A DNA stretch of 64,000 bases from a virus. Shown here piece after piece: positions 10,441 to 64,000 of the stretch. Under the pieces are notes generated by a model. That model was given only the letters and a program-made list of their open reading frames with translations, was not told where the DNA came from and did no database searches. The stretch's first letter is position 1; every line of letters begins with the position of its first letter. Location of the stretch: the IMG/VR virus record IMGVR_UViG_3300013131_000041, positions 1 to 64,000 of that record; one strand, 5' to 3'. The translations under genes and the position numbers were made by a program.

Positions 10441-10448
10441 TATTTATA
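10441..10448 (-). promoter_or_regulatory. Late promoter with exact T4 consensus (TATAAATA) for the tape-measure gene
   Basis: Read on the minus strand the octamer is exactly TATAAATA. Transcription from near 10435 gives a 50-base leader with GAGGT before the ATG at 10385. Confidence 0.7.
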
Positions 10449-13945: not shown

Positions 13946-14959
13946 TTACCATTCTGTAGCGTACTGCTGATTTACCACTGATATACTACATTTAGTCTTA
14001 CATTCTGTCCAGGTAAAATTTTCAAAATCACCTGACCAAAATTCGTCATTTAACACTGTTTCTAGTGTTTTTTCGTTCAAATTGAACTGTTTTGATCTAT
14101 CTAGCCATTCGTTGTTATGATTATATCTGTTAGCTACCCAACAACAAGGCATTAATCTTCCTTGACTGTTTATAAACAATCCTTTATTACCCAAACTGCA
14201 CAACGGCAACACATCTTCATAAATCCTAGCGTTGGTATATAACTTCTTATTAGTTTCTAACCCTATTTCACTAGGTCTACGATCTGTAAAATATGTATAC
14301 TCACGTTGGAATCTATAATTACTGCTAATAAGTTCGTCTTTAGGTTGTAACAGATCACCTTCTGGATAGATACTATATACTTTATTAAATTTTGTGCTCA
14401 ATGTCAACTGAAATTGATCAAACCTTAATTGTTTTGCTAATGCCTTCATTTTATCTAAGTGATCTTCGTTAAACTTAAATGCAATAGCGTCCCATGTCAT
14501 GTAGGCCTTGCTGACAAATCTAAACGACTCGATACCTCTAATAATACTAGCCCAATCGCTGTTTACACGATACTGTTCATTGCTTGCTTGATCCCACCCA
14601 TCTAAACTAAAGTGTATATGATCGTTGGCATCTAAACTAACTCCTAGTTGTTGCCACCATTCGGTGTTTTTGTAGCTACCATTGGTTACAATAACAAATT
14701 TAACTGGTTTGATACTTTTAAAATAACGTATAACAGGGATTAAAGACTTGGCATAAATTGGATCACCGTCATCACCGCACAATGTGATCTTTTCTACATT
14801 GGCTCGAATAAAGTCTGGTGTAAAGTTGCGTTTGAAGAAGTCTAAGTCTAGTTCTGTATTAACTAAGGTATCAGGAACTTCTGTGCGAGCACAGCGTGGG
14901 CATTTTAATGTACACTTGCTGGATATTTCGATATGCCAATGCCAAGTTGCTAATTTCAA
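13946..14959 (-). CDS. Radical SAM/SPASM protein, canonical domain order
   Basis: This 337-residue protein carries the radical SAM cluster motif CTLKCPRC (Cys16, 20, 23) that binds the 4Fe-4S cluster and SAM. A GDDGDP stretch (62-67) stands where GGEP is usual. A C-terminal SPASM-like module has Cys254, the pair Cys272-Cys273 after GLFINSQGRLMP, and Cys320/Cys324. SPASM enzymes mostly modify peptides or proteins. Start: TTG at 14959 overlaps the gp46 stop (TTGA), implying translational coupling; no ATG lies before the essential cysteines. It sits between gp46 and two small basic proteins in the early operon. The substrate is unknown. Confidence 0.88.
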   Translation of the reverse strand: MKLATWHWHIEISSKCTLKCPRCARTEVPDTLVNTELDLDFFKRNFTPDFIRANVEKITLCGDDGDPIYAKSLIPVIRYFKSIKPVKFVIVTNGSYKNTEWWQQLGVSLDANDHIHFSLDGWDQASNEQYRVNSDWASIIRGIESFRFVSKAYMTWDAIAFKFNEDHLDKMKALAKQLRFDQFQLTLSTKFNKVYSIYPEGDLLQPKDELISSNYRFQREYTYFTDRRPSEIGLETNKKLYTNARIYEDVLPLCSLGNKGLFINSQGRLMPCCWVANRYNHNNEWLDRSKQFNLNEKTLETVLNDEFWSGDFENFTWTECKTKCSISVVNQQYATEW

Positions 14960-38100: not shown

Positions 38101-41100
38101 CAAATGTCCAAGTATTAGAAAGCACAACAGGTAACTATATTAAAGTTTCTAAATACCAAAACGCTAATGTGTTTGATATTGGTGCTAATGTCGCAGTTAA
38201 CAGTGCGTGGCCTACAAGTAACGTAGCAGTGCGCTTAACATCACTTGATGAATTTGTAGGAGATATTAACAGTGCTAACATTTTTGGTGTTACTGCTACT
38301 AATGTCAACGGCTACTTACGTTTAGATTCAGACGTTACTGTGGCTAAAGATCAATTACGTATTCTATCAGGCACATTGTATGATGGTGCTGGCCCATTAG
38401 CTGAAGCTGAAATGATCGTGTTTGCATTCATGCAGATTATTGTAAACCCATTTGGTCTACCTGGTGAATACTTTGGCAACAAAGTTAAATTAGCAAGCAA
38501 CGCATACATGTTGATTATTGGCAGTGCTCGTGGCACTACTAAAAACTTTACAACATTTGATGTAAGCACTACAGAAAATGGCACAGTAATTGATTACAAC
38601 ACTACTAGATTCCACGATAGTATTCCGGGCAGTGGTAGTGTTTATGTCTACGAATTGTATGATGATCCTCGCGATGCTGTAGAAAATCCAGGCCGCTATG
38701 CTTTTGCTCAACAGTTAGATCCAGGAAGTCTAGTACAAGGCGGCCAATTTGGCTATGCACTAGATATTGAAAATAATTCTATTACTATTAGTGCTCCCGG
38801 TGCAACTGTAGACGGAGCGCCAGACGGTTCAGGCACAGTGTACGTGTTTAATAATCCCACAGGCGGCCGTGGTTGGAATCTAATTCGCTACCAAGAAAAG
38901 CGTGTTGATTTAGACAGCGTAACACGTGCTTACCTGTATAACAGCCAAACCAATTTAATTGAAAATAATTTACAATTCATTGATCCTGCTAAAGGACGTA
39001 TACTTGGCCAAGCTGAACAAGAAATTAGTTTTAAAACAGAATACGATCCTGCAATTTATAACCGTGGCTTTAACCCTAAGGCTGACATCAATCAAAATGT
39101 TTACTGGGGTGAAAACTACGTGAGTCAAGTATGGTGGAACTTGAGTAAAGTTCGCTATGTTGATTACGAACAAGATACTTTAGTATACCGCAGTCTACAC
39201 TGGGGCAACTTGTTTGAAGGTAGCTCAATTGAAGTAAATGAATGGGTTAAAAGTTCAGTCCTACCAAGCCAATATGTAGAGTTTGGCAGCGACGGCGTGC
39301 CGTTATATGCAGACGATAGTGCTTACGTTGAGGAAATATTTGTAGACCCAACAACTAATATTATTACAAATAATTATTATTTCTGGGTGACAAATAAAAC
39401 CACAGTGGATCCAAACAACCCAGCACGTAATATGCCTACTACTGCTATTGCTGATTTTATTAGCAATCCTAAAAACCAAGGCATACCATACGCAGCTATT
39501 ATCCGCGGTGACGCTCTGGCATTCTACAATGTTGCAAATTACCTAAGTGCCGACAACGCAATCTTACACTTAGATCATCAATTGGCTATCAATACAGATA
39601 TTATTCACAGTGAATACGAACTAGTACAAAAAGGAAATCCTAATAATCCTATTCCAACTAAGTTAGTTAATAAACTTATTGACAGCCTAGCAGGCATTGA
39701 TAGTATAGGATCAACAGTGCCAGATCCGGCGCTTAGCCTGGCTGATCGCTACGGTATTAATGTTCGACCTCGACAAAGTATGTTTGTGGATAGACTACAA
39801 GCAATTAACGAACTAGTACAATATGCAAACAGCATATTTGTTGATAATCCTATTAGTGAACAGTTTGACCTAACAGGATTAAATGCTCAAGAGGCCGAAC
39901 CCAACTTTAAATTGGGTGAGTATGATCAAGCCGTTACAACTGATGCAGAATTATCATACATTGACACAACATCATTGACTCCAGGATACCTAGTGTTAGT
40001 AAAAACTGACACAACACAAAATGGTCTATGGGTTTTATACGAACTGTCTGCAGATAAGACCTGGGCAATTTCTCGAGTGCAGAGTTATAAAACAAGTCTA
40101 TACTGGAATTATGCCGATTGGTATGCAACTGGTTATACTAGTGCAACTAAACCTGATTTTAGCGTTGAAACTACAGTTGATGCACTAAAACTTGCAGGTA
40201 CTGTGGGCACAGTAATTTACATCCGTAACGCTACAGGTAATAATACTTGGCAGTTAGTTGAAGCAGATGTTGATAATACTTTAAAAGTTGTGGGTATTCA
40301 AAACGGTACAATTCAGTTAGACACTAGTTTAGGCAACTACGCTAGTAATGAGTTAGGTTTTGGCAATCAAGACTTTGACAGTAAACGTTACGACCAAAAC
40401 CCAAATAACGAAATTCGTGCAGTGGTATCGGCGTTGTATAACGATATCTTTATCAACACACTACAAGGTGAATTTAACAACTTGTTCTTTACATTGGTAA
40501 ATTATTTACTGACTGAACAGACTTATGTTGATTGGCTATTCAAATCAAGTTTCATCAGTATTACTCATAAACTAAGAACCTTAAGCCAATTCCCGAGCTA
40601 TGTAGTAGATAACCAAACTTACTATCAAAATTACATTGAAGAAGTTAAACCGTATCGTACTAAGATACGTGAGTATCTATTAGACTACACAGGTGAAGAT
40701 ATATTTGGTGGCGATATTACTGACTTTGATTTGCCAGCATATTATGATACACTTACTAACTATGGTATATTCCGTAGCCCAAGCGGTGAACAATCTTATG
40801 CGGACGAAGATAGTGCCACGTGGCAAACATGGCCATACAATCAATGGTACAATAATCGCACCTTACAGGTATATCAAATACAAATTGAAAATGCAGGTGC
40901 TAACTACGTAACACCTCCTACAGTAACTATTACTAGTGCTGATGGATACGGTAGTGGTGCAACTGCTGAAGCAATTATTGATGGAAACACTGGTGCAATT
41001 AGTAATATTGCAGTAACTAATAGCGGCATCGGGTATATCACCACACCAATAGTAACTATCAACGGTAGCTCTACAGAAAGTGCAACTGCGTACCCAGTGA

Positions 41101-50374: not shown

Positions 50375-51343
50375 ATGTCGTACGCACAAGGTGGATTGAT
50401 ACAAGCCAATGACTATAATAATTTAGCCTGGGGTGGCAATACCACTGGTACATATAATAGTTCTGTAACAAATTTGGCACAGGTGATGGGTGTAGGGTAT
50501 GGTTATAGAGGTTATGGCCAAACAATTACTGCTATTAACGTTGTAGACATTGGCAGCACAGTTACAGGTACTCAATGGGCGGGTCTAATTTATCTAACTA
50601 ATCGTGCATTAGGTCACCAAAGCGGCGCAGGCGCACAATTAGGCTCAGGCGGTAACATCGGTACTACAGCAGGTAGTACAATCACAGCGTATGGTAACGT
50701 AGCAACAGCAGTTGGTACCGTTAATACTAATGCAAATACAGCATCTGCACAAGGTAGCACAACTACTGGTAGTGTTTTTACAGCTAACCCAAATGGTGGT
50801 TCTGGAACAATTTCAGGATCGTGGACTCGTACAGTTACTTTTGCAAGTGCTAATGCTGCTCGCTACTTCTTTAACTCCGGTGGTCAAATTAATTGGGTTA
50901 TCACAGGTGCAACTAATAATAACGGCACGCTACGTAGTGCTGATTTAGTAACGCAATGGGCAACATATCAAGCAGGTGGCAGTGTTAAAAATAGCAGTGC
51001 AACCCCTAGAACAGGTAGCGGTGGCACACAAAACACTGCAAACACAGGATTAGGCTACTGGGCTTTAACAACATTGGCACAAGAATGTTCAAAAATTACA
51101 TCAGCAAACTATCGTTATGAATATAACAGTGATTATACCACTGTAAGTTTACGCACAAATGGAGTACAAGGGTCTAACGGCGATGTAGGATCTATTTTAT
51201 ACATTGACTTTGGTTGGTACATGTTCTCAACTTATGCAGGGTTAAACGATAACGTTGATGTTACGGTGTCACATCGCATTGATATAGTGTATCCAGAAAG
51301 TACTTACTTGGCAAACACCTGGGGCACAGTAACTATATCATAA
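50375..51343 (+). CDS. Tail fibre-region structural protein
   Basis: This 322-residue Gly/Thr/Asn-rich beta protein starts MSYAQGGLIQANDYNNLAWG and has a GYGYRGYGQTITAINVV element near residue 42. The start resembles virion proteins near the fibre genes of other T4-like aquatic phages, and the body ends with a jelly-roll-like beta region (VDVTVSHRIDIVYPEST). It is the last gene of the virion block before the sigma-70 promoter at 51347. Its exact place in the particle is unknown. Confidence 0.65.
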   Translation: MSYAQGGLIQANDYNNLAWGGNTTGTYNSSVTNLAQVMGVGYGYRGYGQTITAINVVDIGSTVTGTQWAGLIYLTNRALGHQSGAGAQLGSGGNIGTTAGSTITAYGNVATAVGTVNTNANTASAQGSTTTGSVFTANPNGGSGTISGSWTRTVTFASANAARYFFNSGGQINWVITGATNNNGTLRSADLVTQWATYQAGGSVKNSSATPRTGSGGTQNTANTGLGYWALTTLAQECSKITSANYRYEYNSDYTTVSLRTNGVQGSNGDVGSILYIDFGWYMFSTYAGLNDNVDVTVSHRIDIVYPESTYLANTWGTVTIS

Positions 51344-51375: not shown

Positions 51376-51390
51376 AGATAATTACTAGTA
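51372..51390 (+). promoter_or_regulatory. Inverted repeat over the -10 box and start codon, possible operator
   Basis: TACTAG (51372-51377) and CTAGTA (51385-51390) are perfect inverted arms around 7 bases. They cover part of the -10 box and reach the first base of the ATG. It could bind a repressor or form a weak hairpin; the short arms make chance possible. Confidence 0.35.
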
Positions 51391-51704
51391 TGAGCGACTT
51401 AAATCAATTAATCCAAGAAATACGGTTAGCCACTGACTATCAAGTCAATAAACGTATCTTACGAGAAAAAATCCAAACAGACTTACAAGTAGCACATGCT
51501 GGTGGCTTATTTAAAGTTACACCAGAGCTAATAGCGTTTATTAACAGCTGGGATAGCGATGAACTGTTCTTAGAAGATACATACCAAAATCCAATCAAAG
51601 TTAATCGAAAAGAATTTCTAGAACTGTGTAAACAGCATTATCAAATGGTAATGAATACATGGCATATTCAACATGAAGAAATCAAACGTGCCCGTAAAGT
51701 CTAG
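51390..51704 (+). CDS. Unknown protein, first gene of the cluster operon
   Basis: This 104-residue, mostly helical and charged protein has a central VTPELIAFINSWDSDELFLEDT and an end rich in His/Gln/Lys. I do not recognise a family. It has no signal, membrane segment or cysteine pattern. It directly follows the sigma-70 promoter and overlaps the next gene by 32 bases, so it belongs to the glycosyltransferase/radical SAM operon. It could be an accessory or regulator, with no direct support. Confidence 0.65.
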   Translation: MSDLNQLIQEIRLATDYQVNKRILREKIQTDLQVAHAGGLFKVTPELIAFINSWDSDELFLEDTYQNPIKVNRKEFLELCKQHYQMVMNTWHIQHEEIKRARKV

Positions 51705-52482
51705 AGGGGTATTAGTATTTGCCTTCAACACAGAAAAGACTGATTATGTTCGTATAGCAGAACAAGCTGCACGACTTGTTCATCACACATTAAATCTTCC
51801 TATCACATTAGTCACTGAACCCGGTGTTATGTCAGAACACTTTGACACTACTATATATGTAGATAACACACTTAAAAATTTCAAAGTTGGTGAACAAGGT
51901 AGTTGGCGTAACGGTGATAGATTTAGAGCTTATGAACTTAGCCCATACAATGAAACCTTATTAATAGATACAGACTACTTAATGCTAGATGATAGCCTGC
52001 TTAAGTTATTTGAACAGGATTTTGATTATCGTATTATGAGCTGGAACAATAAACCTGCAACTCCTTGGTTACTAAAAATGGGAATGTATAGTCACGAGTA
52101 CTTATGGGCAACTGCTATATTATTCCGCAAAACTCCCAGGGCCAAGATGTTATTTGATCTTGTGGGTAGAGTGCAACGCAATTATGATTACTATAGAAGA
52201 CTATATCATATGCGCGAAGGAAACTTCCGCAATGATTATGCTTTTACTATTGCTAATAATATCTTAAATGGTTACGATTTAAACTTTGATCAAGGCATAG
52301 TTACACCTATGCTAACTTTTGCTGATGTTACAACCAGCATCGCACCTAAAGGAAATATGTTAGTGGTCAAAGAGCAAGAACGAGCCTATGTAATACCCCG
52401 CCAAAATATACACGTTATGGATAAAGGGTATCTGTTAAGTGACAACTTTAATGAATTCGTTAATACCGTATGCGCAGAGTAG
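51673..52482 (+). CDS. Glycosyltransferase-like protein with DTD motif
   Basis: This 269-residue protein has a GT-A-like layout. An N-terminal strand GVLVFAFNT is followed by TLNLPITLVTEPG, and the acidic motif in ETLLIDTDYLML (Asp99-Thr-Asp101) is the DxD-type site that binds metal and nucleotide sugar. Glycogenin/GT8-like enzymes show similar strands, but the family is not certain. ATG 51673 overlaps the previous gene; a GTG at 51688 with AAGAAA upstream is an alternative start. It would transfer sugar to an unknown acceptor, possibly a fibre protein or surface glycan. Confidence 0.65.
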   Translation: MKKSNVPVKSRGVLVFAFNTEKTDYVRIAEQAARLVHHTLNLPITLVTEPGVMSEHFDTTIYVDNTLKNFKVGEQGSWRNGDRFRAYELSPYNETLLIDTDYLMLDDSLLKLFEQDFDYRIMSWNNKPATPWLLKMGMYSHEYLWATAILFRKTPRAKMLFDLVGRVQRNYDYYRRLYHMREGNFRNDYAFTIANNILNGYDLNFDQGIVTPMLTFADVTTSIAPKGNMLVVKEQERAYVIPRQNIHVMDKGYLLSDNFNEFVNTVCAE

Positions 52483-53336
52483 ATCAATATAAAGCACAGC
52501 AGGGATTTTTCACAATAGCACAGAATAGTAGTGATGTAGATTACCTACGCCTGGCATATCTACAAGCATTAAGTATCAAATTAACCATGCCTGGTAGTCT
52601 ATATGCTGTAGCAGTCGACACAAATACCTTAGCGTTGGTCACAGAAGAACATCGCAAGGTGTTTGACTATGTCATTACTATAGAAAACGATGAATCAGCC
52701 TATGATGACTGGAAACTACGTAACGAATGGCAGGCATTTTTCCTGACCCCATTTAAAGAAACCATTAAATTAGAAAGCGACATAGTATTCACTCGTAGTA
52801 TTGCACATTGGTGGAATACGTTCAGACTTAAGAACATAGTGCTTAGCCAAGGCTGTAGAGATTATTATGGTAATCTAAGCCGTGACCGAACATATCGACA
52901 GTTGTTTGACGATAACCAATTACCAGATGTATATAATGGCTTAATGTATTTCCGTTATAGTCCTGAGGCCGCTGAGTTCTTTTGGTATGCAAGATTGATA
53001 TTTCAAAACTGGCCAGACGTCAAAAATACCTTAGTTAAATGCTACGACGACGAACCTACTACTGATGTAGTCTACGCACTTGCGGCCAAGATCATAGGTG
53101 AAGAAAAGTGTACTATTCCGGGTGTGGATTTTATTAACTTTACTCATATGAAGTCGGCAATTAATAAATTTGCTAGTACACATAACTGGCAGGACTTAGT
53201 AGTACACGAAGTTGATGCACCAATGGTTAGAATAAACAACATAAATCAATATCATCCCTTGCACTATCAAAATAAAGAATGGGTAACAGATGAATTAATC
53301 AAGGAGTATGCTGATGAATTGGCAAGAAGAGTTTGA
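52470..53336 (+). CDS. Glycosyltransferase-like paralogue with ESD in place of DxD
   Basis: This 288-residue protein has the same overall plan as its upstream neighbour: GFFTIAQNSSDVDYLRLAYLQ near residue 12, SIKLTMPGSLYAVAV and ETIKLESDIVFTRS near residue 97. The expected DxD is ESD (102-104), which may weaken metal binding or define a subfamily. Near the middle are CRDYYGNLSRDRTYRQLF and LPDVYNGLMYFR, the latter typical of a GT-A acceptor loop. It overlaps both neighbours. It may be an active or an inactive partner enzyme. Confidence 0.62.
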   Translation: MRRVDQYKAQQGFFTIAQNSSDVDYLRLAYLQALSIKLTMPGSLYAVAVDTNTLALVTEEHRKVFDYVITIENDESAYDDWKLRNEWQAFFLTPFKETIKLESDIVFTRSIAHWWNTFRLKNIVLSQGCRDYYGNLSRDRTYRQLFDDNQLPDVYNGLMYFRYSPEAAEFFWYARLIFQNWPDVKNTLVKCYDDEPTTDVVYALAAKIIGEEKCTIPGVDFINFTHMKSAINKFASTHNWQDLVVHEVDAPMVRINNINQYHPLHYQNKEWVTDELIKEYADELARRV

Positions 53337-53670
53337 GTCAGCCCTTCAAGCATTTGGTACTATAGTAGAAGAACCAATTGAATACCGACTGCATTACGAT
53401 TTGGGCGGTAATATTACCATGTGTACTATGCAACAACACCCGACAACAACAGATTACATTGTTGTAGATCGAGAAACCTACAGCAATTATACCAAATATT
53501 GTGTTGATATTGTTAAAAAACGACTAAAAAAGATTGACATCAACCCCGGAGTGAGTGTACAATTAAAACGTAGCAATCAAGGTTATGCGGCGGCTAAAGA
53601 CCACGCGGGCATTCTGTTGGAACCTGGTGAAGAATATTCTAGTGTAGAGTACTATGAAGCAAATTATTGA
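53314..53670 (+). CDS. Unknown 118-residue protein within the cluster
   Basis: The start at ATG 53314 is chosen because AAGGAG lies 7 bases upstream; an ATG two codons earlier is too close to that site. The protein is an alpha/beta mix with IVEEPIEYRLHYDLGGNITM near residue 16, a basic helix KYCVDIVKKRLKKIDINPGV and an acidic end. No family is recognised, and it has no leader-peptide-like double-Gly end. It lies between glycosyltransferase-like genes and overlaps both, so it probably acts in the same pathway. Confidence 0.65.
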   Translation: MNWQEEFESALQAFGTIVEEPIEYRLHYDLGGNITMCTMQQHPTTTDYIVVDRETYSNYTKYCVDIVKKRLKKIDINPGVSVQLKRSNQGYAAAKDHAGILLEPGEEYSSVEYYEANY

Positions 53671-54547
53671 TATAGCAGATTTAGACGTAATATATTTGAG
53701 CTATGATGAGCCCAAAAAGGAAGAGTTTTGGATTAAAATTCAGAACATGGTGCCATGGGCTCGTCGTGTAGATGGAGTAAAAGGAAGTGATGCCGCACAC
53801 AAAGCAGCCGCAGACGCAAGTGAAACAGATAGGTTTGTACTCATCGACGGCGATAATATCCCGGATAGTGAATTTTTTAACCTTCAACTCAATCTCGATG
53901 ATAGCAACCGTACTAAAGTTTTTCGTTGGCGAGCGAGGAATACGATTAACGGACTCCAATACGGAAACGGGGGACTTAGCTGTTGGACAAAAGACTTCGT
54001 CTACAACATGCGCACTCACGAAGCCTCAGACGGTGACGCAAAAAACGATGTAGAGTTTTGTTTCTACGCAGACTATTGGCCAATGGCAGACTGTTATAGT
54101 ACAACATATCCTAACCAAAGCCCATTCCAAGCCTGGCGTGCAGGATTTCGTGAAGGTGTTAAGATGTGTTTAGATCGCGGAGCGAAGCCCAGTCTAGAAG
54201 AATTTGAAAAGCGTGTACATAGTCGCAACTATGACAACCTGTGTATTTGGCAAACAGTTGGAGCAGATGTTGAAAACGGATTCTGGGCAATATATGGCGC
54301 AAGACTTGGAACATATATGACTATGCTACGTGACTGGGATTATAAATTAGTACAAGACTTTGACCATCTGGCATTTTTATGGGAATCATTTAGTAAAGAT
54401 GACCCAACAGCCTGCACTAATGTAGGCGATACCTTACGCACGCGGTTAGGGTTGCCTATTGTAGATATGGATCCAGATGAAAGTAAGTTTTTTAAGCACC
54501 ACTATAAGAGTAATTTCCGCAATAAAGGAATAATGGAACGTGAGTAA
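53654..54547 (+). CDS. Glycosyltransferase-like protein with DGDN motif
   Basis: This is a 297-residue protein. Residues 12-25 (VIYLSYDEPKKEEFW) and VDGVKGSDAAHKAAADAS near 39 lead to RFVLIDGDNIPDSEFF near residue 60, where DGDN replaces the DxD of nucleotide-sugar enzymes. Proteins with this block order occur in large aquatic phages and are usually listed as putative glycosyltransferases. GGLSCWTKDFVYNM (near 107) and NDVEFCFY (near 130) may form the acceptor site. It overlaps the next, radical SAM, gene by 8 bases. Confidence 0.62.
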   Translation: MKQIIDIADLDVIYLSYDEPKKEEFWIKIQNMVPWARRVDGVKGSDAAHKAAADASETDRFVLIDGDNIPDSEFFNLQLNLDDSNRTKVFRWRARNTINGLQYGNGGLSCWTKDFVYNMRTHEASDGDAKNDVEFCFYADYWPMADCYSTTYPNQSPFQAWRAGFREGVKMCLDRGAKPSLEEFEKRVHSRNYDNLCIWQTVGADVENGFWAIYGARLGTYMTMLRDWDYKLVQDFDHLAFLWESFSKDDPTACTNVGDTLRTRLGLPIVDMDPDESKFFKHHYKSNFRNKGIMERE

Positions 54548-55946
54548 ATCAAAATTTATGTCAGCTGCAGAAGAAATGCAGGACAAGTTAGGTCCTAGTC
54601 TCTGTTTAGCCAAATGGCAACAGGTAAGCCTACACTTACCAACCGGACTTAATAACAGTTGCTACCATCCGCCATTGCATGAAATGGATGCGCAGGTAGT
54701 TGAGTTTCACCCCAGTGCTATTCATAATACACAGTATAAGAAAGAGCAACGTAAAAAAATGCTTGAGGGCGAACGTCCTAAGGAATGTAACTACTGCTGG
54801 ACTATGGAAGATGCAGGACACCTGAGTGATCGTCACTACCGTAGTGGCGAGCCATGGGCGGCAGAACACTATGATGCTATTAAGAATATGCCGTGGGACG
54901 CAGATGTTACTCCTAGTTATGTAGAAGTAAACTTTAGTCACGGGTGTAACTTGGCATGTTCATATTGCAGTCCGCAGTTTAGTACAGAATGGCAGAAAGA
55001 CATTGACCGCTGGGGTGCTTATCCAACTAAACAACCACATAACGACCCTATGCACTTTAAGGGTCGCAGACAACCTATCCCTGTACGTGAAAACAATCCC
55101 TATGTTGAAGCATTTTGGGCATGGTGGCCAGAGCTATATCCACAACTAAAACACTTCCGTATGACTGGGGGTGAGCCATTGATGGATAAGAACACACATC
55201 GTGTGTTTGATTATATCCTTGCGGCACCTAAAGCAGACCTGCACGTTGACGTTACAAGTAACTTTAGTGTAGAGCCACAACTGTTCAACAAGTACCTAGA
55301 CAAAGTTAAAGACTTATGTACAGGCACAAAGATTGAACACTTTATGCAATATGTGAGTATAGACACAGGTATCCCGGAACATGCAGAATACATTCGTCGC
55401 GGATTAAATTATAATCGTCTTAACGAATATGTTAATCGCTTTTTAACAGAAATCCCAGGCCGGAACAGTTTAACGTTTATCATTACAATGAATAACCTCA
55501 GTATCTTAGGTCTGAAGAGATTATTAGAGCAGATTTTAATCTTGCGCAGACTCCACAGCACTACATATCAACGTGTGTGGTTTGATACTCCTGTATTGAG
55601 AACCCCACATTGGCAAAGTTTGCAAATCTTACCAGAAGCGTATGTAGGTATCCTAGAAGATGCTGTTAAGTGGATGGAGCAACATAAGATCGAAGAAGGT
55701 AGTAATCGCTTTGATGGCTTTAAAGACTATGAAATTCAACGTATGAAGCGCGATATTGACTGGATGAAGAAAGGCAAGAAACTAAGCGAAAAATATATTA
55801 ACGATACACGTGCTGACTTTTATCGTTTCTTTAATGAGTACGATAAACGTCGTGGAGCATATGACGAATATGCTAAACCGTTTGAACTTGTATTCCCGCA
55901 AATGAAAGAATTCTGGAACGAATGTAAGTACCATGCCGAAAATTGA
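54540..55946 (+). CDS. Radical SAM protein with N-terminal SPASM-like cysteines (A)
   Basis: This 468-residue protein has the radical SAM motif CNLACSYC (Cys136, 140, 143) and a GGEP element at 210-213 that contacts SAM. Before the core, Cys22, Cys41 and the pair Cys83/Cys86 (KECNYCW) form a SPASM/twitch-like set, so the auxiliary module precedes the barrel. It shares this layout with the proteins at 57098, 59103, 60409 and 61598, and is closest to 57098 (shared FHPSAIHNT/FNPKAIHNT and NPY[VA]EAF[WF]AWW blocks). Radical chemistry on a peptide, protein or sugar is expected; the substrate is not visible. Confidence 0.85.
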   Translation: MSKSKFMSAAEEMQDKLGPSLCLAKWQQVSLHLPTGLNNSCYHPPLHEMDAQVVEFHPSAIHNTQYKKEQRKKMLEGERPKECNYCWTMEDAGHLSDRHYRSGEPWAAEHYDAIKNMPWDADVTPSYVEVNFSHGCNLACSYCSPQFSTEWQKDIDRWGAYPTKQPHNDPMHFKGRRQPIPVRENNPYVEAFWAWWPELYPQLKHFRMTGGEPLMDKNTHRVFDYILAAPKADLHVDVTSNFSVEPQLFNKYLDKVKDLCTGTKIEHFMQYVSIDTGIPEHAEYIRRGLNYNRLNEYVNRFLTEIPGRNSLTFIITMNNLSILGLKRLLEQILILRRLHSTTYQRVWFDTPVLRTPHWQSLQILPEAYVGILEDAVKWMEQHKIEEGSNRFDGFKDYEIQRMKRDIDWMKKGKKLSEKYINDTRADFYRFFNEYDKRRGAYDEYAKPFELVFPQMKEFWNECKYHAEN

Positions 55947-57105
55947 TTTATACACAGTACGAGATCAGGACAATTTTGTATTTGATAATTTTTTAGATAA
56001 CATTAATTTAATTGAAGTTGCTGATCTTAATCAGTTATGGAACCAGGATCATCACTATGTGGTACTTAATAGAAATAAGATCCTCAGCCCCCACAACACA
56101 GTGATCAACGGAATTGATAACAACATCAGAGAGTTCTTATCAGCAAACTCCAAGAACAAAGTAATCATAAATGATTATCATGAAGTAAGTAAAGGCCATT
56201 ACGATTTTTTAAAGAAATACGATTTACTTAAATTTGCAGATAATCGTCAATTATTAATTATTGCTACAGATATGCCCAATGATGGATTTTGTGGCATAGA
56301 TATGCACTTACCTATAATTGTATCTCCTCAAAATATTGCAATCTCTCTACAAAATTTTGAAAAAATATACGAGAAAACAAATAAACCCTATACATTTTCG
56401 TGCTACAATGGTAGAGCATCATCGCATCGTGTTGTGTTAATCGAAATGTTAAGCCAATCTGGTGCGCTTGATAATGCGTTGTGGTCTTTAAACTCTACAA
56501 ATTTTGATACAGCATACATACGTGAAATGTATGGGATAAGCCCATCGCTAGACCATGTACGCTTACATAGTGTTCCTGATGAATATGAACATTATAAAAA
56601 TATAGTGCAGAACAATATTTGGGGGACTGACATCCATGATATTAAAAAGGTGTGGGGCGCTGACGATCACTTAGTTAAACCAATGGTACCAAATTTGTAC
56701 ATTGATACCTATTTCACAGTGATTACAGAAACTAATTATGAAATTGGTGTGCAACCATTGACTGAAAAGATATGGCGACCTATTCTAATGGGCCACCCAT
56801 TTATATCTGTAACTACTCCATACTATTATAAGACACTTAAGAAAAATGGTTTTAAAACATTTGGCTCGTTAATTGACGAATCGTTTGATGAAATTGAGAA
56901 TCCTGCTGATAGACTAAAGAGAACGGCTGAAACTATAATATCATTATCAAGAATGTCATTGGATGGGCTAAACTCATTTTTAAAGGAAGCGCGAGCAATT
57001 TGTGAGCATAATCGAGAAGAGTGCCTGTCGAGGTATGGTCGACAACTATTAACTAATCATACTAACATGCGCAATTTTCTAATAAAAAATTTCAACTATG
57101 CCTAA
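55933..57105 (+). CDS. Exostosin/fucosyltransferase-like glycosyltransferase (A)
   Basis: This 390-residue protein has, at residues about 253-320, YIDTYFTVITETNYE followed by LTEKIWRPILMGHPFISVTT and FKTFGSLIDESFDEI. This resembles the nucleotide-sugar-binding C-terminal domain of GT-B enzymes of the exostosin/fucosyltransferase type, where an E-K-x-W/F and a G-H-P-F turn recur. The same block occurs in the protein at 62817. The N-terminal half is variable, and no donor can be named. It overlaps radical SAM genes on both sides (14 and 8 bases). Confidence 0.68.
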   Translation: MPKIDLYTVRDQDNFVFDNFLDNINLIEVADLNQLWNQDHHYVVLNRNKILSPHNTVINGIDNNIREFLSANSKNKVIINDYHEVSKGHYDFLKKYDLLKFADNRQLLIIATDMPNDGFCGIDMHLPIIVSPQNIAISLQNFEKIYEKTNKPYTFSCYNGRASSHRVVLIEMLSQSGALDNALWSLNSTNFDTAYIREMYGISPSLDHVRLHSVPDEYEHYKNIVQNNIWGTDIHDIKKVWGADDHLVKPMVPNLYIDTYFTVITETNYEIGVQPLTEKIWRPILMGHPFISVTTPYYYKTLKKNGFKTFGSLIDESFDEIENPADRLKRTAETIISLSRMSLDGLNSFLKEARAICEHNREECLSRYGRQLLTNHTNMRNFLIKNFNYA

Positions 57106-58453
57106 ACAATCCAACGAAACATTAATAGAATATAAAGAGCGTGTCATTGACACTAAGAGTGCTAGCTTCTGTGGAGCCAAATGGTACAATGCTACTATCT
57201 GGTTAGGATCAGGGCAGACTACCAGTTGCCATCACCCCTTGCCGCATGCTATCAATGAACAAACAATTATGTTCAACCCTAAAGCAATTCACAACACTGA
57301 AGAAAAGAAAGACCAGCGTCGTCAAATGCAAGCAGGTGAGCGACCAAGCGGGTGTGAGTACTGCTGGAAGTTAGAAGATGCCAAGGCCAGTAGTGATAGA
57401 ATTTATAAAACAATTATTTACAGTGATGAGGACTTAAATGCAGCATTTAATACACCGCCTGAAGCAGACGTTAATCTACAAACTTTGGAGATCGCATTTG
57501 ACCGAACTTGTCAGTTTGCTTGTAGCTATTGTAACCCTGCTTTTAGCACTGCCTGGGTACGAGATATTAAGCGCAATGGAGCCTATGAACATCTCGTATC
57601 TGACGGACGCAATCACTTTACTCACCCTCATGATAGCAGTCAACTTTTTACACCTGATCAGGTTAACCCTTACGCTGAGGCGTTCTTTGCGTGGTGGGAA
57701 TCAGACTTACACAAAACCTTAAAGGAACTGCGTATCACAGGTGGTGAACCTCTGATGAGTCCATACCTGTGGCGATTGATTGATTGGTTTAAAGCAAACA
57801 AAGGCAAGAGTAAGACACGTCTTGCTATTAACAGTAACTTAGGATTTGAACGTGAAAAACTTGAAAGACTTTTGGATGCGTGTGAAGGCATCGAACTTGA
57901 TATCTATACCAGCAATGAATCTTGGGGCCGCCATGCCATGTATATACGCGATGGTTTGGATTGGAGCCAGTGGGTTAATAATGTACGTTATTTACTGGAT
58001 AGTAAGAAACTGCGAGGCCTCCATGTTATGTGCACCATCAATGCCCTTTGTTTATTTTCACTAACAGAATTATTATGGGAAATTGTTGAGCTTAAAAAGA
58101 AATATGGCAAAGATAGTATTAACTTTACTCTAAACATCTTACGATTCCCAAGTTTCCAAAGCCCACTAATCTTGCCCTTAGAGTTCAGAGAAGAAGCGTG
58201 CCGCAAACTAAATCACTTGTTTAACGCCTCACTAAAAATAGGTAATCTGGATTATCTACATGAATTTGAACGTGAACACATTGTTAGATTGATGACTTAC
58301 TTAAGAGACGTGGATAGTCCGCACAGTGGGGCACTAAGTAAAGAAATCTTACAGCGTGACTTTAAGAACTTCTACCAACAATACGACCAGCGCAGAGGAA
58401 AAGACTTTAAATATACTTTTCCAGAACTAAAAGAGTGGTACGATAATTTATGA
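57098..58453 (+). CDS. Radical SAM protein with N-terminal SPASM-like cysteines (B)
   Basis: This 451-residue paralogue of the protein at 54540 has core cysteines in CQFACSYC (138, 142, 145), GGEPLM at 215-220, and N-terminal Cys25, Cys44, Cys86 and Cys89. It conserves CxxPxxPH-like sequence SCHHPLPHAI and the DQRRQMQAGERPSGCEYCW block. A long inserted loop (about 160-195) separates the core from GGEP. The C-terminus (FYQQYDQRRGKDFKYTFPEL) resembles the end of 54540. It probably acts with that protein, possibly as a heteromer or on a related substrate. Confidence 0.85.
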   Translation: MPKQSNETLIEYKERVIDTKSASFCGAKWYNATIWLGSGQTTSCHHPLPHAINEQTIMFNPKAIHNTEEKKDQRRQMQAGERPSGCEYCWKLEDAKASSDRIYKTIIYSDEDLNAAFNTPPEADVNLQTLEIAFDRTCQFACSYCNPAFSTAWVRDIKRNGAYEHLVSDGRNHFTHPHDSSQLFTPDQVNPYAEAFFAWWESDLHKTLKELRITGGEPLMSPYLWRLIDWFKANKGKSKTRLAINSNLGFEREKLERLLDACEGIELDIYTSNESWGRHAMYIRDGLDWSQWVNNVRYLLDSKKLRGLHVMCTINALCLFSLTELLWEIVELKKKYGKDSINFTLNILRFPSFQSPLILPLEFREEACRKLNHLFNASLKIGNLDYLHEFEREHIVRLMTYLRDVDSPHSGALSKEILQRDFKNFYQQYDQRRGKDFKYTFPELKEWYDNL

Positions 58454-59106
58454 TTCTAGCATTTGGTTGTTCGGTTACACACGGAGCAGATTTAGTACAT
58501 CCGGGTCAGCACAGTGATAATATAGAATTTAGCTATCCTAATCTTATTGCTGATGCCCTTGGCGAGACATGCCTAAATCTTGCTGAATGTGGGATTAGCA
58601 ACGAAGGTATATATCACAAAGCATTAGATGTATTAAACAGTAAGGGGCCTGAAGTTACCAGGGTGATCATTGGCTGGACCAGTGATGTTAGAGAATATTG
58701 GCGAGCCGACGGTAGAGATTGGTATTTTATCCCTAGCTGGTGCGCCACTAACAAGGTTGGTGCAGAATTAAGGTATTTCAAAGACTATACCGACAGTGAT
58801 ATTGACTCGCATCCTCGACTATGTAGTGATGATGAAGCATATTTAGAACCATTGGCTAACATGTACAATTATCTAATGCGTTATAAATTTGATCCAGAAG
58901 AATACAAGTACAAGAAGTATAATTATATTTCGAGTATTAGAGACTATTGTACATTGTACAACGTCAAGTTGATTGAAACTTGTTGTCTGAGTCCAGTATT
59001 TGGTATTACAAACCTAGACAACTTTGGCACTTGGCGTCAAGGTCTAGGACACCCAACTCGTCAAGATCACAAACAAATAGCACAGCAGATATTATTAACT
59101 TTATGA
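58450..59106 (+). CDS. SGNH hydrolase-like protein in the cluster
   Basis: This is a 218-residue protein. Block I is LAFGCSVTHGADL (Ser near residue 8), block II/III lies in GISNEGIYHKAL (Gly, Asn), and the C-terminal GHPTRQDHKQIA supplies the catalytic His with a preceding acidic residue. Block I is a variant (GCS rather than GDS) seen in phage SGNH proteins. There is no signal peptide. Acyl-ester removal or transfer on a sugar or protein fits a modification pathway with the neighbouring glycosyltransferases. ATGA overlaps join it to both neighbours. Confidence 0.75.
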   Translation: MILAFGCSVTHGADLVHPGQHSDNIEFSYPNLIADALGETCLNLAECGISNEGIYHKALDVLNSKGPEVTRVIIGWTSDVREYWRADGRDWYFIPSWCATNKVGAELRYFKDYTDSDIDSHPRLCSDDEAYLEPLANMYNYLMRYKFDPEEYKYKKYNYISSIRDYCTLYNVKLIETCCLSPVFGITNLDNFGTWRQGLGHPTRQDHKQIAQQILLTL

Positions 59107-60419
59107 GTGATAAACAACAAGACGAATACTATAAGAATCATCACTATCACACACGTAAGCCTGTGTACATAAGTGAAGATAAACTACGTCCTGATCAATT
59201 AGATAGATTAGTTAACAGTGACTATTTCTGTATGATTCCCTGGATCCATCTTCATGCCTTTCCCGACGGTCGTGCTTATCCTTGTTGTTTGGGCGACGAC
59301 CGGCATCCTGTGGGTAGCTTTAAACAAGACAGTATGGAGACTGTTTGGAATCAAGAAGCATACCGAACAATGCGTACTAACATGTTAACAGAAAAGCCCT
59401 GCAAAGAGTGTACTAAATGTTACGAGCAAGAAGCCGCAGGCTTTATGAGTATGCGTAACAGTACAAATAAAAACTTTGGGCAACACATTAACATTGTTGA
59501 TCAGACATTGGCTGATGGTACTATGCCAGAGTTTAAATTGCGCTACTATGATATTCGCTTTAGTAACTTGTGTAACTTTACCTGCCGTACATGTGGCGGA
59601 TGGTTCTCTAGTAGCTGGTATACTGAAGAGGAAGAGATTTATGGCAAGCGTAACTATCCCAGAGTTATGTTTGCAGGCCGAACAGAGTTAGATATGTGGG
59701 AACAACTAGAACCACATATTCCTTATCTGGAGCAAGTATACTTTGCTGGCGGCGAACCTATGATGATGGAAGAACACTATCGCATATTAAAAGAATTAGT
59801 CAAACGTGAAATGTTTGATGTTAAGTTAATTTACAATACAAACTTCAGTCGCTTGAACTTAAAAGACGACAACGTTCTAGACTATTGGAAACTATTTAAG
59901 AATGTAAGTGTTGGTGCTAGCCTAGATGGTATGGGTGCTGTGGGCGAATATATACGCAAAGGCACTAAGTGGGATCAGATTGTTCGCAATCGTGAACAAA
60001 TGTTAGCAGTAACACCCGACACTGACTTTTATGTTAGTTCAACCGTTAGCTTATACAATGCTCTTCATGTACACCACTTTCATCGTTATTGGTCGGACCA
60101 AGGACTAGTGAAACCACAGGATTGGAATATTAATATCTTACAAGGCCCGGACCGCGATAGGATTGACGTATTACCTAAGGTGTATAAAGAATTAGTAACA
60201 GAGCAGGTTACTGAACACATTAAGTGGTTACAGCCACTAGATCACTTACAACGTGCTACCAGTGGATATGAAGGTATGCTAAATTTTATGAATAGCACTG
60301 ACAATAGTCACTTATTAAAAGAGTTTTTCCGTGTAAATGATATACACGATAAGTACCGTAATGAATCATTTGAACAAGTATTTCCAGAATTAATAGATTT
60401 GAGATCCAATGCTACCTGA
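59103..60419 (+). CDS. Radical SAM protein with N-terminal SPASM-like cysteines (C)
   Basis: The start is the ATG at 59103 that overlaps the SGNH stop (ATGA). The frame extends to 58980, but only as a shadow of the SGNH gene. This gives 438 residues. The N-terminal module has Cys43 in CMIPW, the pair Cys61-Cys62 in YPCCLG, and Cys100, 103, 106. The core is CNFTCRTC (157, 161, 164) and GGEPMM lies at 216-221. The CxxPW...PCC pattern closely matches the SPASM domain found at the C-terminus of the protein at 13946. A Gly-Gly-W follows the core motif. Confidence 0.87.
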   Translation: MSDKQQDEYYKNHHYHTRKPVYISEDKLRPDQLDRLVNSDYFCMIPWIHLHAFPDGRAYPCCLGDDRHPVGSFKQDSMETVWNQEAYRTMRTNMLTEKPCKECTKCYEQEAAGFMSMRNSTNKNFGQHINIVDQTLADGTMPEFKLRYYDIRFSNLCNFTCRTCGGWFSSSWYTEEEEIYGKRNYPRVMFAGRTELDMWEQLEPHIPYLEQVYFAGGEPMMMEEHYRILKELVKREMFDVKLIYNTNFSRLNLKDDNVLDYWKLFKNVSVGASLDGMGAVGEYIRKGTKWDQIVRNREQMLAVTPDTDFYVSSTVSLYNALHVHHFHRYWSDQGLVKPQDWNINILQGPDRDRIDVLPKVYKELVTEQVTEHIKWLQPLDHLQRATSGYEGMLNFMNSTDNSHLLKEFFRVNDIHDKYRNESFEQVFPELIDLRSNAT

Positions 60420-61608
60420 AAAAATTTGTATGCTACCTTGGATTAGTATAGAAACTAGTCCTATAGGCACAGCTCGTCCGTGCTGTCTTGCTGTGGACGA
60501 AATTACCAAACCCGGCGGATCTAAATATAACCTTAAAGAAAATACCTTAGAAGAAATATATCACAGCGAGTACATGCAAAATCTTCGCAAAGAATTTCTT
60601 GCAGGCAATAAACCAGAAACATGTCGTCGTTGTTGGGACGAGGAAGCTGCAGGTCGAACAAGTAAACGTATTAACAGCAAAATTAGATTAAAGGAATATT
60701 ATGACTCAGTTGATTGGAATAATCTTAACCCTGATCAGTTGTGGTTTATTGATCTTAAGCTCGGCAATATTTGTAATCTTAAATGTCGTATTTGTGGGTC
60801 TTGGAGCAGCAGTAAGTGGGTTAACGAAGAAATAGCCTATGTAAAAGGTTTAACTAATCGAAAAGAACATTTAGCCTACAAGTTTTTACAAGATGGCGCC
60901 TGGCCCAGAGAGACAGAAGTGTTCTGGGATAACTTACGTACTCTATTACCTAATATCAAATACTTTGAGTTTACAGGCGGTGAGCCCTTCCTTATCCAAC
61001 AACACTTCGATCTATTAGAGTACGCTGTTGAACACGATTTTGCTAAGAACATTGAAATACATTACAACACTAACGGCACTGTTTTTCCTGAGCAACACAA
61101 TTTATGGAGTCACTTTAAACATGTTGAAGTAGCATTCTCAATTGACAACACAAATGAAAGATTTGAATACGAACGTTACGGGGCAAAATGGGACGAAGTA
61201 CAGGCCAATTTAGCTAAGTTTAATCAACTACGCAGTAGTAAATTTAGTACACAATTATGCTTAACTGTTAATATTCAGAATGTTTATTACCTTCCAGAAA
61301 TCTGCGATTGGATATCTACGCAAACATTCGATCATGTATACTTTAATATGTTACATGATCCTTGGCACATGTGTATTAGTCGGATGACTTTGGCTGCTCA
61401 GGAGTTAGTAATCATGAGCTTGACTAACCATAAGTTTGATTCTAAGTATCGTGCTGAGATTTTGAGAATTATTAAGTTTATACAAAATGGTTTGGGCAGT
61501 GATGGGTTAGAATTCTTATCTAAGATGAAACAGGCTGACGAATATCGCAATCAAAGTTTTTTAATTACTCATTACGATACAGCAAAGGCGATGGGATATG
61601 AAAAATAA
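60409..61608 (+). CDS. Radical SAM protein with N-terminal SPASM-like cysteines (D)
   Basis: This is a 399-residue protein. Cys7 (CMLPW), Cys25-Cys26 (PCCLA), and Cys72/Cys75 (TCRRCW) form the N-terminal module. The core CNLKCRIC is at 122, 126, 129, and GGEPFL at 190-195. It is close to the protein at 59103 in spacing and in the GSW/GGWFSSSW region after the core, so these two form a subfamily. It overlaps neighbours by 11 bases on each side. It has no signal or membrane segment. Confidence 0.87.
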   Translation: MLPEKICMLPWISIETSPIGTARPCCLAVDEITKPGGSKYNLKENTLEEIYHSEYMQNLRKEFLAGNKPETCRRCWDEEAAGRTSKRINSKIRLKEYYDSVDWNNLNPDQLWFIDLKLGNICNLKCRICGSWSSSKWVNEEIAYVKGLTNRKEHLAYKFLQDGAWPRETEVFWDNLRTLLPNIKYFEFTGGEPFLIQQHFDLLEYAVEHDFAKNIEIHYNTNGTVFPEQHNLWSHFKHVEVAFSIDNTNERFEYERYGAKWDEVQANLAKFNQLRSSKFSTQLCLTVNIQNVYYLPEICDWISTQTFDHVYFNMLHDPWHMCISRMTLAAQELVIMSLTNHKFDSKYRAEILRIIKFIQNGLGSDGLEFLSKMKQADEYRNQSFLITHYDTAKAMGYEK

Positions 61609-62824
61609 CATAGATCAAATATATAAAGAGTTTGGAGAAGACATCTGTTTATTTCCGTTTTTGGCTGCATTTTATACAACATTTAACATACCGTATGATC
61701 CCGCAGGAAACAAGATAGCCCCTTGTAGTTTGTACGCAAATCACAAAACAGTCAATGACGGGATTATTAATTCTATTAACACCGATGAATGGAAAGACCT
61801 AAGAAAAAATTTCACCAAAGGTTCTTGCCATACGTGGGAACACTGTAAAAAATGTAGTAATGCTGAAAAAGCATTTGGGCATAGTTCTCGAGTTTTAAAC
61901 AATAGTTATTTTGCAGACCATTTACAAGTTGACATTGTCGATGAGGTCAAACATATTATAGACAATGATTATACGGTTGAAAAAATATATTCGTTAGATT
62001 TTTTCCCTAGTAATTATTGTAATTATGAGTGTATCATGTGTAATGCTACTTCATCGTCAAGTCGGTATGTTTTTGACCGTAAGATTTATTTCTTAACTAA
62101 TGTAAATTTAAATCCCAACGAAAAAATAGAATTTTTAGACGCAGATAGAGATTTTGAGGAAGTGCTCTCAACTGTTGAGATTATTAATTTTGCTGGGGGC
62201 GAAACCTTAATGCAACAACAAGTTCACAAGGTCATTGATTTGATGATTGAGAAAGATCTAGCAAAGAATGTAACTATATCTTTATTAACTAATGCTAGTA
62301 AATTCCCTGAAAGATTACTAGTACAATTACAACAATTTAAAAATGTTTTTTATACTATTAGTATCGACGGGATTGGCGACGTAATTGAATATCAGCGCAG
62401 AGGAAGCAAGTGGTCTGTAGTTGAAGAAACAGCACTTAAAATTAATCAACAGTTTGGTTCTGTGGTAAATTATGTTGCAACCGCAGTAAATGTATTTAGA
62501 TTTGCAGAGTTTATAGAATGGGCAAGCAAGAATAAGATTGATAAAGTGATTCTAAGTATAGTATTTGATAAAGAATATTTGTCTGTGTCGGTCATACCCA
62601 ATGAGTTGAAAGATAAAATAATAGCAAACCTCCAGACTGAGAAAACTAAGCACACTCAATATTATGCTGATCTACTAGATCAAATGATTTCAGTGCTTAA
62701 TGCGAATAAACATACGCCTGAATTACTACCAGAGTTCATTGAACGAATTAAAATAGAAGATACAGCAAGTAAAAAACCATTAGTAGAAGTGATTCCTGAA
62801 TGGGCACCTTATCTAAATGCTTAA
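61598..62824 (+). CDS. Radical SAM protein with N-terminal SPASM-like cysteines (E)
   Basis: This 408-residue protein is the most diverged of the set. Core cysteines CNYECIMC are at 141, 145, 148. GGETLM at 200-205 replaces GGEP. The N-terminal module has Cys17 (CLFPF), Cys43 (APCSL, one Cys where others have two), and Cys77, 83, 86. A poly-Ser stretch follows the core, as in the GGWFSSS of sister proteins. The Glu-Thr change in GGET and the single Cys may mean a different auxiliary cluster. ATG...TAA overlap links it to the glycosyltransferase-like gene that follows. Confidence 0.85.
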   Translation: MKNNIDQIYKEFGEDICLFPFLAAFYTTFNIPYDPAGNKIAPCSLYANHKTVNDGIINSINTDEWKDLRKNFTKGSCHTWEHCKKCSNAEKAFGHSSRVLNNSYFADHLQVDIVDEVKHIIDNDYTVEKIYSLDFFPSNYCNYECIMCNATSSSSRYVFDRKIYFLTNVNLNPNEKIEFLDADRDFEEVLSTVEIINFAGGETLMQQQVHKVIDLMIEKDLAKNVTISLLTNASKFPERLLVQLQQFKNVFYTISIDGIGDVIEYQRRGSKWSVVEETALKINQQFGSVVNYVATAVNVFRFAEFIEWASKNKIDKVILSIVFDKEYLSVSVIPNELKDKIIANLQTEKTKHTQYYADLLDQMISVLNANKHTPELLPEFIERIKIEDTASKKPLVEVIPEWAPYLNA

Positions 62825-63869
62825 TCTGGTTAGAATAGGCCCTACAGATTTTAGTAGCGACTACTTAGAGTGGATATTTGCAAAATACTTTACATTGTCC
62901 AATTTTGATCCCAATAAGAGCTACAACCAAGATTATTTGTTTGTGTTTAGTAGACCAAATAACTATGCCGAACATATTCTTTCTAAATTATTGAAGAATG
63001 GCCATAGAGTAATTGTTGCTAACCCATGGGAAGCTCGCCCTTATCTTTTGTCAATCGACTACGCAGAATATCAAGATCAAATACTAGTTATTTTAGGATG
63101 TAAAAATCCGTTTGACTACGGATGGAAAAACGTAGTTAGTGTACCTCGCTGGTTTTGGTTTAATGAACATTTGTGGTATACTTGTGATCACTCGATTAAA
63201 GAATCAATAGAAAGATATGTACCTAATAGGAGCAACAGTAAACTATTCTTAATGCCCATGCAACGCAGTAAAAAATTTAGAGATGCTATAGTTGACCGAT
63301 TAGAATCTAATTTAGATCAGGCTGTGTGGAGTTATGTAGAACGATGGGGAGGAACAATAAGTTTGCCTCGCTACACAACTAGTCCGTTTGAAACTATTCG
63401 TCCTGACAGGGTATTTGAACCAGAATGGTATAATCAAACATATTTCAGTGTAGTAGTAGAAACCGCAGTCAATCGATTGCAAGACATAACAAAAGAAACT
63501 TCCGGGCTACGCAGCGAAGATTATCCATGTGATGTGTTTGTAACAGAAAAAACATTTAAACCAATTGCATTTCAACATCCATTTATGGTAATAGGAATGC
63601 CAGGAACGTTGGAGTTTTTACGAAGCAATAGATTTGAAACATACGAAAATATATTTGACGAGTCGTATGACAATATGTTATTATTTGAGGATAGACTAGA
63701 AAAAGTCTCAATGAATATTAAAAATTTTAGCACTAGTAAGTATTCAGATTCTGTAACAGCACAGAAAATTGAGCATAACTATTTTAGATTCAATAACAGG
63801 GGTCTGGTACTGGAATATTTTAAACAGGATATTATTGATCCAATATATGAATTTGCCGCAAAAGCCTAG
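62817..63869 (+). CDS. Exostosin/fucosyltransferase-like glycosyltransferase (B)
   Basis: This 350-residue protein shares its C-terminal block with the protein at 55933: TYFSVVVETAVNRL (near 206), FVTEKTFKPIAFQHPFMVIG (near 241), and RFETYENIFDESYDN (near 273). T-E-K-x-F/W-[RK]-P followed by G/Q-HPF is the common element. The N-terminus contains a Rossmann-like start but no donor signature. An inserted loop of about 20 residues (ITKETSGLRSEDYPCD) precedes the block. It overlaps a radical SAM gene on each side, which ties the two enzyme types together. Confidence 0.67.
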   Translation: MLNLVRIGPTDFSSDYLEWIFAKYFTLSNFDPNKSYNQDYLFVFSRPNNYAEHILSKLLKNGHRVIVANPWEARPYLLSIDYAEYQDQILVILGCKNPFDYGWKNVVSVPRWFWFNEHLWYTCDHSIKESIERYVPNRSNSKLFLMPMQRSKKFRDAIVDRLESNLDQAVWSYVERWGGTISLPRYTTSPFETIRPDRVFEPEWYNQTYFSVVVETAVNRLQDITKETSGLRSEDYPCDVFVTEKTFKPIAFQHPFMVIGMPGTLEFLRSNRFETYENIFDESYDNMLLFEDRLEKVSMNIKNFSTSKYSDSVTAQKIEHNYFRFNNRGLVLEYFKQDIIDPIYEFAAKA

Positions 63870-64000
63870 AACACTATGTTTGGCACCTTGGGTACACACA
63901 TACCTAAGTCCTCAGACTGAACGCAGAATGTGCTGTGCCAGTCGCGAACCTGCACAGAACTTTAAGCAATACATTGACACAGAATCTGGTACTGGCAAGT
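63847..64000 (+). CDS. Start of a sixth cluster radical SAM protein (cut by window edge)
   Basis: ATG 63847 lies inside the end of the preceding gene, and the frame continues past the window edge. The 51 visible codons contain RTLCLAPWVHTYLSPQTERR then MCCASRE. This is the C-x-x-P-W...C-C start of the N-terminal SPASM-like module seen in the proteins at 59103 and 60409. The radical SAM core itself would lie beyond the edge, so the assignment rests on this module and on context. Confidence 0.7.
   Translation, partial: MNLPQKPRTLCLAPWVHTYLSPQTERRMCCASREPAQNFKQYIDTESGTGK

Follow-up and report, generated by a model that had tools for sequence, protein, structure and literature searches.

A conserved operon of radical SAM and glycosyltransferase-like genes behind the tail fibre genes of uncultivated tailed viruses, and its possible role in fibre decoration

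A long run of genes for radical S-adenosylmethionine (SAM) enzymes and glycosyltransferase (GT)-like proteins lies behind the tail fibre genes of the virus record IMGVR_UViG_3300013131_000041, raising the question of what such a set of enzymes makes and on which molecule it acts. The stretch analysed, referred to here as the window, comprises the first 64000 bases of this record of 69679 bases. An abundant lineage of large, uncultivated tailed viruses of bacteria carries this locus as a conserved biosynthetic operon. It is proposed, at a probability of roughly 0.45, that the operon makes a glycan-type decoration of a virion fibre, being either a 322-amino-acid (aa) fibre-like protein encoded just upstream or the tail fibres themselves.

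Layout of the operon

From position 51390 to the end of the window, fourteen genes run in one direction with an overlap at every junction. An earlier note made from the letters of the window, the sequence-only reading, had described such a run, and the open reading frames were found where it placed them, with 13 of 13 junctions between 51390 and 63847 overlapping as against 1 of 14 in the immediately preceding structural block (Fisher p = 7e-7). Overlap is also the rule in related viruses, at 562 of the 621 corresponding junctions (55 loci). The structural block is that of a tailed virus, with genes for a major head protein, portal, baseplate hub, baseplate wedge, a 4581-aa virion protein and tail fibres. 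Past the window end the operon runs on to at least record position 69677, with the remainder of the sixth radical SAM gene, a gene for a 412-aa protein, three SGNH hydrolase genes and a NodU-type carbamoyltransferase gene which is incomplete, running past the end of the record. The fibre-like gene and the genes of the run, together called the cassette here, are as follows.

50375..51343, + strand: 322-aa fibre-like protein (FIB), rich in Gly, Ser, Thr and Asn and fast-evolving, between the tail fibres and the remainder of the cassette
51390..51704, + strand: u104, conserved 104-aa protein of unknown function, in 40 related loci, without family match
51673..52482, + strand: GTa, GT-A-like, with invariant D99/D101 (DxD) in an alignment of 22 sequences
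52470..53336, + strand: GTb, GT8-like (glycogenin-like), profile match to glycogenin-1 (E=0.002), with invariant E102/D104
53308..53670, + strand: u120, conserved 120-aa protein of unknown function, in 37 related loci, without family match
53654..54547, + strand: GTc, GT-A-like, with invariant DGDN, 66% mean column identity and at least 598 IMG/VR relatives
54540..55946, + strand: RB1, N-twitch radical SAM, core orthologue 1 (NF033640, 301 bits; clade support 1.0, 51 loci)
55933..57105, + strand: GT-B-like protein, optional and variable, with a shared C-terminal E-K...PF...DESYD block
57098..58453, + strand: RB2, N-twitch radical SAM, core orthologue 2 (NF033640, 297 bits; clade support 0.995, 52 loci)
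58450..59106, + strand: SGNH hydrolase of an optional subfamily, with GCS and HP..H blocks in 12 of 12 members (Lipase_GDSL, E=0.019)
59103..60419, + strand: RA1, N-twitch radical SAM with N-terminal SPASM/twitch, core orthologue 3 (NF033640, 402 bits; clade support 0.999, 54 loci)
60409..61608, + strand: RA2, N-twitch radical SAM, core orthologue 4 (NF033640, 335 bits; clade support 0.58, 54 loci)
61598..62824, + strand: extra, non-core N-twitch radical SAM paralogue (NF033640, 235 bits), outside the five orthologue clades
62817..63869, + strand: second GT-B-like protein, optional, of the same family as that at 55933 (20% identity)
63847..64000, continuing to record position 65148, + strand: RC, sixth N-twitch radical SAM, core orthologue 5 (NF033640, 288 bits; clade support 1.0, 53 loci)

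Most of the gene identities given in the sequence-only reading were upheld. Pfam and NCBIfam confirmed the five full radical SAM genes as well as the sixth, which begins at 63847, the SGNH hydrolase at 58450 possesses its Ser and His blocks along with a sub-threshold Lipase_GDSL match, and the two genes listed as unknowns (u104 and u120) had no family match. Its count of five GT-like proteins held in part: GTa, GTb and GTc are backed by DxD-type motifs, the glycogenin profile match and a marginal fold likeness, whereas the proteins at 55933 and 62817 carry the label by motif appearance, with no homology to a known GT found.

Elsewhere in the window, the sole exact T4 late promoter consensus (TATAAATA) was located at 10441-10448 on the minus strand, directly before the gene at 8067-10439. 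Such exact sites (n=1) are rarer in the window than expected by chance.

Conservation of the cassette and its link to fibre genes

The protein encoded at 60409 was used as a seed to search IMG/VR for related viruses and gave 55 virus loci; the locus counts reported here represent related viruses rather than independent events. Clustering and gene order showed one cassette consisting of the fibre-like protein, u104, GTa, GTb, u120, GTc, the radical SAM genes, the 412-aa protein, SGNH hydrolase and carbamoyltransferase. In a tree, the radical SAM proteins form five orthologue clades, each present in 51–54 of 56 loci, with high support for RB1, RB2, RA1 and RC and low support (0.58) for RA2; the window locus carries all five core orthologues and the one extra paralogue at 61598. 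Their order is RB1, RB2, RA1, RA2, RC, with RA2 and RC swapped in a single pair of loci. Among the 64 RC loci with at least 9 kb of upstream sequence, RB1, RB2, RA1, RC and the 412-aa protein were found in 64/64 and all five radical SAM genes in fixed order in 58/64. Broader scans of IMG/VR gave at least 497 relatives of the fibre-like protein, at least 598 of GTc and at least 596 of RC, and the cassette is present in hundreds of uncultivated virus contigs. The suggestion that these genes serve a single pathway is well supported by this set order of five radical SAM orthologue groups together with the GTs and the 412-aa protein.

The cassette is also tied to fibre genes. In 20 of 20 viruses the shared order was gp6 (where reached), a giant baseplate-region protein, a 204-aa protein, tail fibres, the fibre-like protein and the rest of the cassette. 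Co-occurrence near fibre genes, which the sequence-only reading had put forward as a check on itself, was borne out among the 59 fibre-like loci with at least 6 kb of downstream sequence, with GTs downstream in 59, radical SAM genes in 58 and u104 in 57; the single locus lacking radical SAM genes is on a contig which carries GTs and ends early. The fibre-like protein was the most variable of the families compared, with a median pairwise identity of 37%, and RC the most conserved (72%). A variable fibre-like protein accompanied by conserved enzymes fits a situation in which the enzymes would act on a common feature of an exposed, variable protein, and the invariant coupling to the fibre-like gene favours decoration of a virion fibre. 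The claim of fibre-linked modification thus stands as regards genomic linkage, whereas for the fibres as substrate we infer rather than observe. As a separate observation, the 4581-aa virion protein (29196-42941, + strand) matches phrog_10938 and is conserved at this location in each of the 20 related viruses.

No GenBank phage record contained the core of the cassette, with the fibre-like, u104, 412-aa, RB2 and GTc proteins all unmatched there; matches to the radical SAM proteins were weak and came from Vibrio jumbo phages and one marine single-cell virus only. A cyanophage origin was rejected, psbA being absent in 14 of 14 records. Two virus-like contigs (L065 and L097) from a metagenome-assembled genome (MAG) labelled Pacearchaeota carry clamp-loader, lysozyme-like and cassette genes, and by their gene content appear to be mis-binned.

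Predicted enzymes, bacterial counterparts and known systems

All six cassette radical SAM proteins score above the whole-protein threshold of 170 bits curated for NCBIfam NF033640 (N-terminal twitch, N_Twi_rSAM), a family whose model names no function; what sets the present locus apart within it is that five fixed orthologues form a set beside fibre genes. The CxxxCxxC motif of the SAM-binding Fe-S cluster is kept in every full-length member of the three radical SAM groups and of the five orthologue clades. In RA1 a SPASM match (E=1.8e-11) covers residues 44-107, on the N-terminal side of the radical SAM core, and RA2 has, along with the invariant radical SAM Cys residues, an invariant N-terminal set (C7, C25, C26, C72 and C75). 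The single solved relative found with the RA2 profile was the sactipeptide maturase SkfB, the relation being limited to the radical SAM core. No short precursor peptide gene, the hallmark of ribosomally synthesised and post-translationally modified peptides, was found in the operon, where the overlapping genes leave no space for one; a larger protein as radical SAM substrate would be compatible with this. A seventh radical SAM protein in the window (13946-14959, − strand) differs in type, its SPASM domain being C-terminal, and adjoins SbcC; its homologues lie within the cassette in three loci (L049, L050 and L051).

Iron-sulphur (Fe-S) genes accompany the cassette. An IscU-type scaffold was present in 8 of 8 cassette virus records of at least 280 kb (interrupted in two) and an A-type carrier in 6 of 8, and a SUF-associated protein was found within or near the cassette in three loci. 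The tie between Fe-S genes and the cassette is suggestive, the search for them having covered cassette-bearing viruses. The two interrupted IscU-type genes (G030:C1:77125-77501 and G409:C1:258224-258602) are seemingly split or frame-shifted, which could reflect assembly error, an intron or decay.

Carbamoyltransferase and SGNH enzymes often tailor sugars. The cassette carbamoyltransferase scored above cut-off for the Carbam_trans_N and C domains (128.7 and 128.3 bits) and below the NodU equivalog cut-off. The GT-like proteins had no Pfam or NCBIfam match. Nonetheless, the DxD-type motifs of the GTa, GTb and GTc families are invariant; GTa matched no PDB sequence, GTb matches glycogenin (GT8) by profile, and the AlphaFold2 model of GTc (pLDDT 86.7) showed marginal likeness to GT-A and nucleotidyltransferase folds (E = 1e-3). 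Beyond the cassette, many loci encode a DegT aminotransferase closest to PseC-type models (41 of 64 RC loci) and a 4,6-dehydratase-like protein (30 of 64). Taken together, the dehydratase, aminotransferase, SGNH and carbamoyltransferase enzymes are indicative of a tailored glycan, or glycoconjugate, of cytoplasmic origin. A simple hydropathy scan found no transmembrane or signal-like segments in any cassette family, aside from a few isolated members, and the enzymes therefore probably work in the cytoplasm, consistent with a cytoplasmic acceptor. Genes for a precursor peptide, an exporter or a carrier protein are absent from the cassette. The 412-aa protein had no PDB fold match, and its matches were uncharacterised phage proteins only, one of them from Agrobacterium phage Atu_ph07. 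By eye, amidinotransferase-like genes were seen near N-twitch radical SAM genes in both viruses and bacteria (L053, L057, L095 and L134), the L057 copy having no NCBIfam match.

The same radical SAM family occurs on bacterial chromosomes. Members above cut-off were found in 94 of 291 genomes of the phylum to which a Deltaproteobacteria MAG belongs, and chromosomal islands hold up to eight such genes in 19 kb. One bacterial genome (G240; contig L152, 5151-17147) has all five radical SAM types in a locus adjoining obg, and its proteins are sister to, or among the sisters of, the viral RA1, RB1, RB2 and RC clades. Since bacterial sisters of the viral clades exist, the five-way division of the radical SAM proteins predates the viral cassette. 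RC orthologues were detected in 12 of 369 genomes, mostly with partial sets; on some bacterial chromosomes the set of enzymes is nearly complete. By Pfam, the neighbours of the bacterial genes are mainly more radical SAM proteins, and a few loci resemble glycan loci (L096 and L174). In L096, an RB1-like gene lies beside a DegT aminotransferase, GTs, a carbamoyltransferase and an ABC-2 exporter pair. The bacterial neighbourhoods do not settle the substrate.

Several known phage systems resemble the cassette in part. The T4-like host-recognition island of the pelagimyophages likewise combines tail fibres, GTs and radical SAM cassettes and has been read as modifying the host O-chain (PMC7029224); that island is reported to be non-syntenic and hypervariable (PMC7029224), whereas gene order and the five orthologues are invariant here. 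For the T4-like environmental genome TARA_ERS488813_N000010, 12 radical SAM genes are reported along with Fe-S genes (PMC5332604), which makes it alike in joining many radical SAM genes with Fe-S assembly genes in one virus; the passage concerned gives counts, with no operon, order, fibre link or GT partners (PMC5332604). In Vibrio phage K566, GT8 and GT4-like genes are interspersed among N-twitch radical SAM genes, and PagP and LpxC lie nearby. Its cluster differs from the cassette in lying near lipid A genes and in its low identity (~24%), and none of the fibre-like, u104, GTc, 412-aa and RB2 proteins had a match in the phage collection searched. Phage GTs are known to decorate virion proteins (Freeman et al. 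2023, cited in PMC12619734), with no radical SAM step in the citing text (PMC12619734). Gtr-type O-antigen conversion uses a membrane flippase and membrane glucosyltransferases, whereas the cassette has no transmembrane-like family. No description of a fixed set of five radical SAM enzymes was found in the open-access literature.

Proposed product, alternatives and significance

Under the proposed fibre decoration, GTa, GTb, GTc and the optional GT-B-like proteins would build a short glycan in the cytoplasm of the infected cell, in many members from sugars supplied by virus-encoded nucleotide-sugar enzymes (the 4,6-dehydratase and PseC-like aminotransferase near the cassette). The five N-twitch radical SAM enzymes would carry out successive radical modifications of the glycan or its attachment residues, after which the SGNH hydrolases and carbamoyltransferase may edit acyl and carbamoyl groups. 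The acceptor would most likely be the fibre-like protein (50375-51343) or the tail fibres encoded next to it, giving virions with a modified receptor-binding tip. In a more specific and more tentative form of this proposal, viral scaffolds and carriers would provide Fe-S clusters to five radical SAM enzymes which, acting one after another, may build a previously unknown glycoconjugate on the receptor-binding fibre by a chemistry shared with an uncharacterised bacterial chromosomal pathway.

A number of points weigh against fibre decoration. Adjacency to the fibre genes could be inherited synteny and not function. GTa and the GT-B-like proteins show weak homology to GTs, and the bacterial islands are not as a rule found in glycan loci, with GT2 neighbours in 6 of 115 cases compared to 2 of 117 controls, no convincing excess. 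No T4-type late promoter consensus is present upstream of the operon. The family members of K566, near PagP and LpxC, better fit a role at the host envelope. The glycan product, the order of reactions and the substrate are moreover inferred from the genes.

A serious, though less likely, rival is remodelling by the operon of a glycan on the host surface (O-chain, lipid A or capsule) in the course of infection, for instance to block superinfection or the re-adsorption of progeny; the operon's place in the host-recognition island would then reflect selection on the interaction with the host surface. This is the published view of the GTs in the pelagimyophage island, which also holds radical SAM cassettes (PMC7029224), and it agrees with the gene neighbourhoods in K566 and L096. 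However, a flippase, polymerase, acyltransferase membrane protein and signal peptide are absent from all cassette families, and the one-to-one coupling to a fast-evolving fibre-like gene would be left unexplained.

Twitch and SPASM radical SAM enzymes often modify peptides, and it is conceivable, if improbable, that those of the cassette modify fibre side chains directly (cross-links, epimerisation, or C-C and thioether bonds) with the GTs and SGNH hydrolases acting independently. The SkfB relative of RA2 and the lack of space for a short precursor gene, which leaves a larger protein as the substrate, both suit this explanation; the confinement of the SkfB likeness to the radical SAM core, the glycan-type partners (carbamoyltransferase, 4,6-dehydratase and aminotransferase) and the ~37% median identity of the fibre-like protein against conserved enzymes all speak against it. 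Clusters with multiple radical SAM genes are typical of natural-product loci, and bacterial islands of the family exist without fibre genes; yet a small-molecule or peptide product (an inhibitor, signal or cofactor) unrelated to fibres is slightly less probable again, given the missing precursor, exporter and carrier genes and the constant linkage to the fibre-like gene. Hypermodified DNA bases, which phage carbamoyltransferases and GTs can make, are strongly disfavoured as the product. A phage-associated carbamoyltransferase does make 5-carbamoyloxymethylcytosine (PMC8670742), and dCMP deaminase, thymidylate synthase and dihydrofolate reductase genes lie downstream in some loci. However, no record yielded more than one gene of the thymidylate synthase family, those of 189, 289 and 329 kb included, no separate dCMP hydroxymethylase was seen, and 13 of 13 readable synthases have Asn where modified contigs have Asp (Asp177) (PMC8670742).

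The cassette is real, conserved and unexplained. Radical SAM genes have been noted in phages before without explanation; five fixed orthologues with a chromosomal counterpart make of them a defined pathway which can be expressed and assayed. Should the fibres prove to be decorated, the pathway would add a new layer to the ways in which phages recognise hosts or shield themselves, and would offer new glycan chemistry; should it be the hosts, it would amount to a new form of surface remodelling.

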